This document shows, piece after piece, positions 13,798 through 17,698 of a stretch of 64,000 nucleotides of DNA; the first letter of the stretch is position 1; each line of letters begins with the position of its first letter. Under the pieces are notes generated by a model that worked only from the letters and a program-made list of their open reading frames with translations, ran no database searches and was not told where the DNA came from. Made by a program: the position numbers and the translations under genes. Location of the stretch: contig NZ_CP049910.1 of NCBI RefSeq assembly GCF_011305995.1, forward strand, positions 806,001 to 870,000, given 5' to 3'. The DNA comes from Diaphorobacter sp. HDW4A (GTDB lineage: Bacteria > Pseudomonadota > Gammaproteobacteria > Burkholderiales > Burkholderiaceae_C).

Positions 13798-15903
13798 TCA
13801 CGTCGCGATGAAGCCACGGTCACGCCAGCGGTCGGCGACGAAGTCCTCGAAGTCGTAGCCCTCGCCAAGCTCCAGTCTGTCGGCATGGTCGCAGACGATG
13901 ATTTGCGGCTTGTTGCCGACCTCCTGTGCCGTGTCGTTACAGAACTTGGCCAGGACGGTGAACATCTTGGCGACGGTATTCAAGTCGTCATCGGCCGTCG
14001 AGATGCGTGTGTGCGTGTCCACAGGCGAGTTCGCGGTGCGTGTCGCGGGCTCGTCCGTATTCTCTTCGGGCTGCGGGCTGCCGGGCGCGCTGGCGGATGT
14101 GTCGTCCTGGTTCGCGCGCAATTGGGCTGCATTGAATTCCTTACCGTAATCGGCGGAGGGGAAGTAGACCTGCGTCGGTTGGTCGAGGAACAGCACGGGC
14201 GGCAGCTTGCAGTCGGCGTAGGCCGCAAACTGGTAGTGCAGGGACAGGAACAGCGTCAGGTGCGAATACAGCCAGTTCGCGCCACTGCCCATCGACCGCA
14301 GGAAGACTTTCTTCTCCGGCGCGCCGTTTACCCCCGGTGTCTCATGCCATAGGTCGAAGGAATCGATGTCGAACTTCAGGGATCCATTCTTGTAGGAGTC
14401 CTCGAAGTCGAAATGTGTGCCGACGATCTCCAGGCGCCGGTTGATGTCGCGTTGCAAGGCCAGCAGCCGGGGCGCGACATCGAGCAAAGCCTTTTTCGAT
14501 TTCAGGTCCGCCACCCGGTCCTGGAGCAACTTCACCAACTCCGTGGTTTCCGTGGGCGGACTCTCGATGCGGCGCTCAATGGCGATTTCTAGCTTGATCT
14601 TGGCTTTCTGCGCTGCTGCATCGACAGACTTCGAGCGCTGCAGTCGGTCGGCCTCCTGGTCCAGTGGACGCAGTGTGCTTTCGACCTGCCGCAAGGCCTG
14701 GCGCGCCTTCTTGAGTTGCTCGTCGATGTCCCGACGCTCTTGGCCAAAGCCCTCGCGGGCATAGGCCGAGACCTTCAGCTCACCGTTGAGCCAGTGGATG
14801 GCCGCCGAGAGTCTGTTGGCCTCATCTTCGGCGGCTTCCGAGGGTGACGCACAGACCGGGCACACGGCATGGTCCAGATGGGTCGCCTTCGGGATGGGCA
14901 GATCCGTCATGGCACCGGTGAATCCCTCGACTTGCTGTGTCGAGACGTCGAGCAGGTAGCGCGTGTTCAGGGCCTTCTGGATATCGGCCATGAGCTCGGC
15001 TTTGCGTGTGCGCAGTTCCTTGCGGGTCGCGTCGAAGGTATCGGACTGCCCATCGACCGTGACGGCGATACCAGTCAAGCGTTCCAGGGCCTGCGCCGGC
15101 CGCATCCAGATTTCTTCGGCGGTCAACTCTGTCAGCGGCGTGCCCGCTAGGGCGTGGAACTCACGCAGGTAGCCCGCCATCTCTCCAATGCCGGCCGATT
15201 TGATCTGCTCCTGCTTGGGGATGACGGCCAGGGCACGCTTGAGCTCAGTTTCTGCTTCGGCGAGTTCCTTGGCCAGATCGAAATAGTCCTCTCCCACGAT
15301 CCCCATGAAGATCTTGAAGTGATCGATGGCCTGTTCGCGTTTTCGCTTTTCGTCGAAGCGGTAAAAGATCGCATGCCGGTTGGCTACCAGGTTTTGATGC
15401 TGGAGCATGAACGAGGCAAAACTTCGGATGGAAGGCGTCGGGCTTTTCTGACGCATGAGCTGCTTCTGCAGCGGGTCCGTGTCGATGTCGTCCATGGTGA
15501 CGCCGAAGTAGCGTCCCAGGCTCTTGGAGAATTCGATCCGGGCAAGCTGGTATTGCGCGGTAAAGAAGCTGTCCACGTCCTTGACGTAGGCCAGCACATG
15601 CTTGGCCTGCTCGCCACTGACTTCTCGCAGGAAACATTGGTTGGCGTTGTCTGCTCTGCGGCCGGCGACAACCGCCATCCCGGAAAAGCGCCATACGGTG
15701 AAAAATATCTTCGCCCGCTGGGTGATGATGCCTTGCGGAATCGTGTCTTCTGAGCTGCCCATGCAGTAATCGAAGATGTCGAGAATGGCACTTTTGCCCT
15801 TCGAAGATTTTCCGGTAATGATATTCAAGCCTTGCTTGAACTTCACGCTGTGCGCCTCATTTTCCTGGTCGATCACACCGATATATCGGACATAACATTT
15901 CAT
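13798..15903 (-). CDS. ABC-3C system ATPase, DUF3732 (SMC/Rad50-like)
   Basis: A 701-residue SMC/Rad50-like ATPase. Walker A is GKSSKGKS (31-38), with a Q-loop region at MLQHQN (about 165-170). Charged, coiled-coil-like helices at about 205-315 and 385-475 flank a zinc-hook-like CPVC (about 347-350). The signature-like [11 protein letters not shown] lies near 539, Walker B is [13 protein letters not shown] near 569-580, and the switch His is in IIVCDHADR. Walker B has Gln after the Asp where Glu is normal, which I believe is characteristic of DUF3732. In ABC three-component systems this ATPase is the proposed DNA or invader sensor. The start overlaps the middle-component stop by ATGA. Confidence 0.85.
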
Positions 15904-16361
15904 AGCGACTTCAATCCCAGCATTCTATAAATGGTCACGACGCTTTCATTCCTGAATACCATGGCGAGCTGACGCGCATAACGCAGCATCTTGGGGTCTG
16001 CATTCTCCGACTGCCGGTTTTCGCTGGCGAGAACTGACAGGTCGTCATTGAGTTGAAGGCTTGCATCCGCGCGCAGTATCAAAAGAGCCTTGTTGGTAAT
16101 GGGCGCATATTCCGAGATGCGAAGCGCCAGACCGACCAACCGCGAAGAGTCGGATGTCATGGTCCGGATCGAACTGGTTCGATTGGCGGTATGCAAATAC
16201 TCCTGCATCGCGGGAAACGACACCAGGGGAAGAACCAGATAGCTCAGCAGGATGTCTTTCTCCATCGGCTCCCAGTTCAGGTAGAAGCTCTGGATTACCG
16301 GCGCCAGCGCAAAGGCGTTGCGATGCAGGATATAGAGATGATCGGCGGCGGTATCCATCAT
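15900..16361 (-). CDS. ABC-3C system middle component (DUF6521/MC3 type)
   Basis: A 153-residue protein matching the middle-component pattern: early [16 protein letters not shown], then [18 protein letters not shown], a central region with [23 protein letters not shown], and a final [11 protein letters not shown]. In the family the middle component bridges the ATPase and the effector-bearing third protein. It overlaps both neighbours by 4 bp (ATGA), so the three are one translationally coupled operon. Assignment to the MC3/DUF6521 subgroup is from memory of the pattern. The frame starts with two consecutive ATGs. Confidence 0.8.
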
Positions 16362-17698
16362 TCCCAGAGTTTCCAGTGAAATTCATCGTTCTTGTTTTCG
16401 GGAGTCTCGTCTGCCAGCATGTGATAAATGCCATTGCGAAATTCCGGCATGGTGTTGGTCATGGCGCAAAAAGGTTCCGTCGAAGCTCTCAGACGTGCCA
16501 GGTAGAACCTAAGTGACGCCTTCTTGAGGGCCGCGTCGTCCTGCAGGCCGTCGCAATCCACAATGGCCGCTTCCCGCTCCACAAAATGGTTGCTGCGGTG
16601 GTTGTGGAGATAAAGGTCAAGAGAGGGTTTGATGGGAATCTGATCCTTGAGGAGCCCGGAAATCGTGTCCTGCGCAAATAGGCGGTGCAGGGCCGCGTGC
16701 TTGAGATATTTTTCGCCCTCGATCTCGAGGATTTTCCTGGCGAAGAGCATGGGCCTGATTTCGTCGAGATCGACTTTTTCTTCCAGTGGCCGAAGATCTC
16801 TCAAAGGGAACTCTGCCGGATGCTTCATGTACGAGGAGTGCAGAGCAGTCAGCTTGGCGGTGAACGCCTCGTGGGTGATCTGCCAGCCGTTCAGGACGAG
16901 TTCGGTGCTGAACATGAAGCCCAGCAAGTCATCCAGGTACTGTTGCTGCAGCGACGGTCGTATGGCTTTGAGGTAGCGGGTCTTGTAGCTGTCGATGCGC
17001 TCAGGCAGGGCCTCTTCGCCCGGGATGATGAGCATGCGCTCCAACACCTCCATCAGCGCCGCGCGGCTCTCGGGCGCTAGCACCTCCTGCTGTAGTGCCC
17101 GCGCCTTGGACGGCTTGCGGGCCGTGGTTTCAGCAGTTTGGATCGCCTCGTCCTGCGGCTCGGGTGGCTCCTCCATTTGCGTCTGCTGTGTGCCAGCCCC
17201 GTCGTTGCCGATTTCCTGCATGCGCTCAAGCCGCTGCACAGCGGTCAGGATGTTCCAGTCCTTGAGGCGGCTCTGGGCGCCGAACTCCTGAGTCGTCAGA
17301 AGCACCAGCGACTTGTAGCTGCTGCGGTCAAACCGCTCATGCAGCCAGTTCCGGATCGTGTTCCAGAAGTTCTGGTGGCTGTCGGTCAGCTTGTCGCTGT
17401 AGTGCTTGACCTCAAGTTGCGTCTTGCCCGGCACGGTGACATCGCCCATGGCTTCAATCCATAGACACTCTCCGGGCATGAGGTAGTGGCACTGTTCTAC
17501 GGCCACAAGCAACTGATATTGCAGTGCTACGAAAAGTACAGTTGCATCGACGGGCAGAGCTTGCGTATCGGTCTGCAGCTGTTTGGACGGAGGTGGCATG
17601 GGCGGTGTCGGCTGCAACTCGAAGTCTCCTGTTTCCTCTGTCTCTGGCGGCTGGGTTGATGGGGCATGCCCGCAGTCGCCATCCAGCGCGGCCTGCAT
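16358..17698 (-). CDS. ABC-3C third component with PD-(D/E)XK nuclease-like N-terminus
   Basis: A 446-residue protein, first in the operon. Residues 56-120 resemble Cap4-like dsDNA endonuclease domains: VALQYQLLVAVEQC, then Glu82 and Asp86 (WIEAMGD), then Glu96-x-Lys98 (QLEVKHY) and a conserved-looking DSHQNFWNTIRNWLH. This is a PD-(D/E)XK arrangement. A Gln/Glu/Pro-rich linker lies at about 150-190. The C-terminal half is mainly helical and carries LYLHNHRSNHFVEREAAI; it is likely the ABC-3C C-terminal domain that docks onto the other components. The likely role is DNA cleavage by the effector when the ATPase senses an invader. The first 50 residues are Pro-rich and may be partly untranslated; the ATG at 17599 is an alternative start. 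Confidence 0.75.
   Translation of the reverse strand: MQAALDGDCGHAPSTQPPETEETGDFELQPTPPMPPPSKQLQTDTQALPVDATVLFVALQYQLLVAVEQCHYLMPGECLWIEAMGDVTVPGKTQLEVKHYSDKLTDSHQNFWNTIRNWLHERFDRSSYKSLVLLTTQEFGAQSRLKDWNILTAVQRLERMQEIGNDGAGTQQTQMEEPPEPQDEAIQTAETTARKPSKARALQQEVLAPESRAALMEVLERMLIIPGEEALPERIDSYKTRYLKAIRPSLQQQYLDDLLGFMFSTELVLNGWQITHEAFTAKLTALHSSYMKHPAEFPLRDLRPLEEKVDLDEIRPMLFARKILEIEGEKYLKHAALHRLFAQDTISGLLKDQIPIKPSLDLYLHNHRSNHFVEREAAIVDCDGLQDDAALKKASLRFYLARLRASTEPFCAMTNTMPEFRNGIYHMLADETPENKNDEFHWKLWE

Follow-up and report, generated by a model that had tools for sequence, protein, structure and literature searches.

Operon and its closest described relatives

Lamassu is an already known family of defence systems with solved structures, in which the ATPase LmuB is thought to detect hairpins, DNA ends or stalled forks, as stated in two sources (PMC10586767; PMC12904381), and the effectors are reportedly activated by oligomerisation upon sensing, according to a third (PMC12799240). 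PMC10586767 also describes the replacement of the Walker B glutamate by glutamine and a zinc hook as Lamassu features, and places the ABC three-component (ABC-3C) systems inside the Lamassu superfamily; the terms ABC-3C, three-component and middle component are absent from PMC7159879. Here we describe a further member of this family, an operon on the minus strand at positions 13798–17698 of a 64,000-nucleotide stretch of the Diaphorobacter sp. HDW4A genome (contig NZ_CP049910.1, positions 806,001–870,000; hereafter the window, whose numbering is used throughout). The initial annotation had read the genes as an ABC-3C module, which is supported by matches of all three proteins to ABC-3C/Lamassu profiles, and had added that few such systems have been tested, a remark overtaken by the solved structures of Lamassu complexes, given that ABC-3C systems belong to that superfamily.

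The operon consists of three open frames of 446, 153, and 701 amino acids in the order lmuA (16358–17698), lmuC (15900–16361), and lmuB (13798–15903), and both gene junctions are 4-nt ATGA overlaps, as had been noticed before. LmuB is a Rad50/SMC-like ATPase matching Pfam DUF3732 (E-value, 6.4e-44; score, 150.1 bits against a cut-off of 25) and AAA_23 (4.4e-06), PADLOC LmuB (PDLC03859; 6.7e-128 over residues 1–696), and, in a sequence search of solved chains, PDB entry 9hqu chain E (1.6e-29). LmuC, encoded between LmuA and LmuB, is an MC3 middle component (Pfam PF20131; 7.6e-26; 90.9 bits against a cut-off of 23.2) that also matches PADLOC LmuC (PDLC03870; 4.1e-13), so that both families named in the initial annotation, DUF3732 and the middle component, are borne out above their curated thresholds. 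LmuA, the effector, matches no Pfam family at E-values up to 1 and matches PADLOC LmuA at 6.1e-51. We conclude, with a probability of about 0.92, that the three genes are a complete type II (Cap4-nuclease) Lamassu operon, which was gained by horizontal transfer and would work through its LmuA nuclease as its relatives do.

Conserved motifs of LmuB and LmuA

The ATPase motifs of LmuB are intact. In an alignment of 19 sequences, the Walker A motif GKSSKGKS (residues 31–38; 15790–15813, minus strand) has invariant Gly31, Ser33, Ser34, Gly36, Lys37, and Ser38, and the Walker B motif LFLDQP (residues 571–576; 14176–14193, minus strand) has invariant Asp574 and Gln575, the glutamine replacing the catalytic glutamate. 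The same DQP Walker B is found in all three solved relatives, and the signature SMGSGANW is kept. A Rad50-type zinc hook, CPVC (residues 348–351; 14851–14862, minus strand), with invariant Cys348, Pro349, and Cys351, aligns with CPMC of 9hqu. LmuB therefore carries both of the features described for Lamassu, the glutamine Walker B and the zinc hook, the latter being a feature of many, not all, members. Between Walker B and the H-loop lies a 32-residue insert rich in proline, serine, and threonine (residues ~603–634; 14002–14097, minus strand), present in six of the 19 aligned sequences (the query, P0128, P0140, P0147, P0148, and P0151) and absent from the other 13.

LmuA combines an N-terminal enzymatic domain, a Cap4/DUF4297-like PD-(D/E)XK nuclease, with a C-terminal docking part, the two-part composition expected of a Lamassu effector. 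The active-site region (17405–17455, minus strand) comprises Glu82, Asp86, and the segment Gln94-X-Glu96-Val97-Lys98, of which Glu82, Asp86, Gln94, Glu96, and Lys98 are invariant in an alignment of 44 sequences (the query and 43 of 120 listed homologues). In the predicted structure, Asp86 immediately precedes the strand of residues 87–89, and Glu96–Lys98 lie within the strand of residues 93–98, as in PD-(D/E)XK nucleases; the predicted fold thus bears out the nuclease-like N-terminus that had been suspected from the sequence. The extreme N-terminus is uncertain, residues 1–48 having a predicted local distance difference test (pLDDT) value below 50, and several of the homologues shown begin near residue 28 or later, others earlier. 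The real start of lmuA may be codon 28 (TTG, at 17617) or codon 34 (ATG, at 17599).

Horizontal acquisition and genomic context

The operon appears to have been gained horizontally between two convergent LysR-type genes (assigned by Pfam), the left one at 12600–13505 on the plus strand and the right one at 18726–19625 on the minus strand. The two genes are adjacent in four of five other genomes of the genus, where the left orthologue is 81–93% and the right 89–96% identical; neither was found in the fifth, G003, which is fragmented and 83% complete. LmuB was found in none of the five. The module is therefore not a conserved resident of the locus. The neighbours are ordinary and unrelated to the operon, as initially annotated, with ABC-transporter parts and LysR on the left, and LysR, LysE, AzlCD, and an NlpA lipoprotein on the right. 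No tRNA gene was found in the 64-kb window, and no Rfam match in 13400–18900.

The segment 13537–17894 has a GC content of 58.3%, lower than any of 255 overlapping windows of its length taken from the rest of the 64-kb window, which average 63.2%. The lower GC content that had been judged by eye is thus confirmed at the scale of the operon, although at 1 kb the dip is not unique (minimum 52.5% inside the insert and 53.3% elsewhere in the window). A second copy is present in Roseateles koreensis hw8, with 95% DNA identity over 13537–17889, an LmuB 97% identical, and three open frames; YqaJ and DUF932 genes lie no more than 6 kb away. At the DNA level the acquired segment occurs in only two of 399 genomes of the family, its own and that of Roseateles, the other 36 genomes in the tally having short matches. 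The extent first assigned, 13798–17698, holds for the three genes; the acquired DNA is wider, at about 13537–18684, and includes a second small unit described below.

More distant relatives of LmuB (~62% identity) adjoin other defence genes: Gabija genes at locus L027, a GajB-like gene and a protein whose first part matches PADLOC Aga_REase at L026, and type I methylase and specificity genes, a PtuA-like gene, and an HNH-type gene at L119. The last two genes (L119 2869–5744, on a viral contig) encode an AAA ATPase and an HNH-type protein with PDC-M62B/M01B matches, and a 941-amino-acid protein encoded beside the Lamassu and Gabija genes (L027 10449–13271) matches nothing in PADLOC at E-values up to 1e-5. 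Seven integrase candidates occur in six of the seven listed loci, and six of the candidates are of phage type. Among plasmids, LmuB relatives were found in 63 records; the match spans 80% or more of the query in 24, and 30 are on plasmids typed as conjugative. The only relative among phage records, 47% identical, comes from an unannotated one, and viral contigs yielded one, at 62%.

Proposed mechanism and its alternatives

By analogy with solved and tested relatives, the small Rad50-like ATPase LmuB, with its zinc hook, would form a complex with LmuC and LmuA in which the LmuA nuclease is kept inactive. Invader DNA, with its free ends, hairpins or stalled forks, would be met by LmuB, and ATP-dependent engagement would release LmuA, which may then assemble into an active oligomer, possibly the tetramer seen for LmuA among solved relatives in the structure comparison, and cleave DNA. 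Such cleavage would stop a phage or plasmid, probably at the expense of the cell. We infer anti-phage activity of the Diaphorobacter copy on the same grounds.

Several observations weigh against this assignment. In a search of 149 genomes, LmuB matched in five including its own, and the other four matches are weak (23–27% identity, one short piece at 40%). The match of LmuC to its PADLOC profile is modest (48 bits), and no solved chain was matched by its sequence at E up to 1. The identity of LmuA to solved LmuA is ~14%, and the whole-chain root-mean-squared deviation of its structural match is high, at 9–10 Å, so the model does not fix how its parts lie relative to one another. Because of these low identities of LmuB and LmuA, the trigger could differ from that of the relatives. 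In the PADLOC scan of ten neighbours of the relatives, which had been picked as defence-like from four of the seven loci, two were without a match. Two other explanations have to be weighed against the same evidence. The Rad50 features of LmuB, including the zinc hook, together with its weak Rad50 matches, could belong to a domesticated repair or chromosome-maintenance complex with no part in defence; the dedicated PADLOC Lamassu matches of all three genes, the absence of the operon from all five congeners, four of which keep the flanking genes adjacent, and the defence genes adjoining its relatives leave this reading with hardly any probability. It is likewise very improbable that a Lamassu operon has lost its function here and persists as the passenger of a mobile unit: the ambiguous lmuA start codon would suit such a loss, whereas the three frames are intact, both overlaps and the catalytic residues are retained, and the Roseateles copy, with its 97% identical LmuB, has its three frames open as well. 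An intact type II Lamassu operon therefore remains the preferred reading.

Acquired units and their ends

The acquired DNA is composed of two units on the minus strand. Unit A (13537–17888) carries the Lamassu operon and is bounded by the Roseateles koreensis alignment, beyond which the surrounding 9–24 kb compared is without a match. Its 3′ end, GACGGCAATCGCTGCA on the coding strand (13537–13552), is repeated exactly and directly, over 16 nt, at 17899–17914, and its 5′ end, AGGCTGTGAGCT (17877–17888, coding strand), coincides with the Roseateles alignment boundary. Unit B (17899–18684) contains one open reading frame (ORF) and is bounded by an alignment with Diaphorobacter sp. HDW4B, which is 96% identical over 17900–18684 at a different site with different flanks; in G004 the unit is 93% identical with yet other flanks. 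The two units share the 3′ end GACGGCAATCGCTGCA and the 5′ end AGGCTG[T/A]GAGCTG, and the 16-nt repeat stands at the boundaries of both, which were set independently by Roseateles and HDW4B. The extended 19-nt pattern is rare, with two exact copies in 6.76 Mb, both at this locus. The A/B junction (17870–17930, minus strand) is an imperfect palindrome with a predicted fold of −14.1 kcal/mol (z, −3.25; none of 200 shuffles as stable) and is the sole outlier among six stretches folded as single strands.

The ORF of unit B (17999–18460) encodes 153 amino acids with several CxC/CxxC pairs and falls below every Pfam cut-off. Its DNA is 83–100% identical in 26 of the 399 family genomes (its own included), mostly with differing flanks, in the manner of a small travelling gene. 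Sequence like unit B occurs in 36 of the 399, and in 27, its own genome counted, E is below 1e-30; the alignments mostly take in the ORF and its upstream part, not the 3′ end.

Target duplications at the unit boundaries were not recognised by eye. Insertion into palindromes was considered and rejected: a strong inverted repeat arises from the flanks in two of seven comparisons, unit A of Roseateles (none of 1000 shuffles as good) and the unit of G053 (1 of 1000), and in none of the remaining five, two of which are overlapping readings of the window. An empty site of the Roseateles copy was sought with both flanks: apart from itself, the right flank matched only in part in the 379 genomes searched (at best over 202 bases, 80% identical, in G358), and the left flank gave four weak plasmid matches.

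Similar ends at other loci

Plasmid searches with short queries of three unit ends gave no match, a Polaromonas match, and an HDW4B match, respectively. On Polaromonas plasmid pPNAP05, a 13-nt identity, AGGCTGTGAGCTG, to the 5′ end of unit A lies upstream of a CHC2 zinc-finger gene, and no 3′ end was found within the 49 kb read. A 5′-end model built from three ends (window, Roseateles, and Polaromonas) matches 36 of 399 genomes at E of 0.01 or better, against ~4 expected by chance, provided that the rough E-values hold. It lists 40 places, two of which are model members, and the six best of the other 38 were examined. In the congener G002, such an end lies upstream of a HATPase gene and a DRT1 reverse transcriptase (Drt1a; E-value, 0), and the 3′ end is only a 13-of-16 match; the surroundings match in five congeners on one side only, and therefore no empty site is defined. 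At this locus (L163 2673–8590), the DRT1 gene, of the RT-nitrilase type, adjoins the gene of the HATPase_c_3 family behind the 5′ end. Outside the window, the Diaphorobacter HDW4A genome contains DNA 67–68% identical to parts of the DRT1 locus (G000:C1:1231536–1233412), and may therefore hold a related reverse-transcriptase system.

The unit of G053 (L162 1413–3808; 2.4 kb) has both ends, with the exact 3′ 16-mer, and encloses a RelA/SpoT-domain gene, which weakly matches the PADLOC candidate PDC-S33 (4.2e-09), and an NA37 nucleoid-associated gene. The two 5′ ends in G188 are close to contig ends, and little of their cargo is visible. In G249, one 5′ end is without a recognised 3′ partner, and the other, which follows an exact 3′ motif, stands before the gene of a small tyrosine recombinase. 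Relatives of this 207-amino-acid recombinase (L167 8624–9244) occur in 1442 plasmid records, at 60% identity or more in 174. As the mobilising enzyme the recombinase was rejected, and it may simply be further cargo: among five copies, that of G249 and those of four plasmid loci, two have the 5′-end sequence upstream and three lack it.

Allowing up to one mismatch, the 3′ motif was found 23 times, in 19 of 250 genomes; five occurrences belong to the units above, and one, on contig 2 of the Diaphorobacter HDW4A genome, has neither another end nor homology to the units. The 17 further places are counted as chance: 13 lie inside ORFs of 137 amino acids or more and four inside ORFs of 65–95, and the 5′-end model found nothing convincing near them (best E, 0.017). 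The 3′ motif was accordingly discarded as a stand-alone genome-wide marker.

These ends can be read in two ways. Units A and B might be members of a Burkholderiales family of transposase-less DNA units of 0.8 to ~7 kb, capable of standing in tandem, with defence modules among their cargo, and mobilised by an enzyme acting in trans. The proposed ends would be, at 5′, AGGCTG..GCTG or AGGCTGGTTGCYGTCG, then AATGACNGCTGC..GAGCAG, and at 3′, GACGGCAAYCGCTGCA, partly complementary to the 5′ end, and the cargo would be Lamassu here, the DRT1 reverse-transcriptase pair in the congener, and the Rel/NA37 pair elsewhere. Such a family, not assignable to any known kind, is a doubtful if possible reading, advanced only as a hypothesis because neither a target duplication, an empty site with exact junctions nor a mobilising enzyme was found. 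Alternatively, the shared ends are chance or an ordinary dispersed intergenic repeat that defines no kind of mobile unit, a serious possibility that still falls short of probable. The chance recurrence of the 3′ motif, the unseen target duplication, the 5′ end in only two of the five recombinase copies, the 13-of-16 match of the DRT1 unit, and the missing Polaromonas 3′ end fit with it, whereas the 16-nt repeat at independently set boundaries, the G053 unit bearing both ends around other cargo, and the rarity of the 19-nt pattern argue against it.

Comparison with known systems

The operon adds to type II Lamassu a divergent, intact member from Comamonadaceae that has a clade-specific insert near the ATP site and could serve to study what determines trigger specificity. 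Of greater interest is how two genera came to share a 4.35-kb defence operon that has no integrase of its own. If its ends do mark out a family of mobile units, further defence modules outside classical defence islands could be sought with them by sequence.

Units A and B resemble integron gene cassettes in being small, arranged in tandem, without their own recombinase (no search aimed at an integron integrase was made), and joined at an imperfect palindrome. The attC site of integron cassettes has RYYYAAC/GTTRRRY boxes, with the boundary inside the GTTRRRY box. In contrast, the unit boundary lies at AGGCTG (AGACTG in G004) with differing preceding bases and no GTTRRRY box, and the sequence following the 3′ 16-mer is not carried along. 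LmuA differs in turn from CBASS Cap4, a nuclease with a SAVED nucleotide-binding domain, in its structural alignments: Cap4 chains cover only residues ~50–291 of the LmuA model, whereas LmuA chains extend to residue 446. To ABC-3C systems with an MC3 middle component (Pfam PF20131) the operon is alike in exceeding both curated cut-offs, MC3 and DUF3732, and no excluding feature was found. Type II Lamassu, represented by LmuACB of Salmonella enterica (PDB entries 9hqx and 9hr5) and Vibrio cholerae (9uxl), shares with it the components LmuA, LmuC, and LmuB, the DUF3732 ATPase with a DQP Walker B, and the predicted LmuA fold with a Cap4-type nuclease. It differs in its LmuA, ~14% identical, and in lacking the clade-specific 32-residue insert that the Diaphorobacter LmuB has between Walker B and the H-loop; the zinc hook of the latter aligns with that of 9hqu, whereas the aligned stretch of 9ny5 and 9uxl has none.

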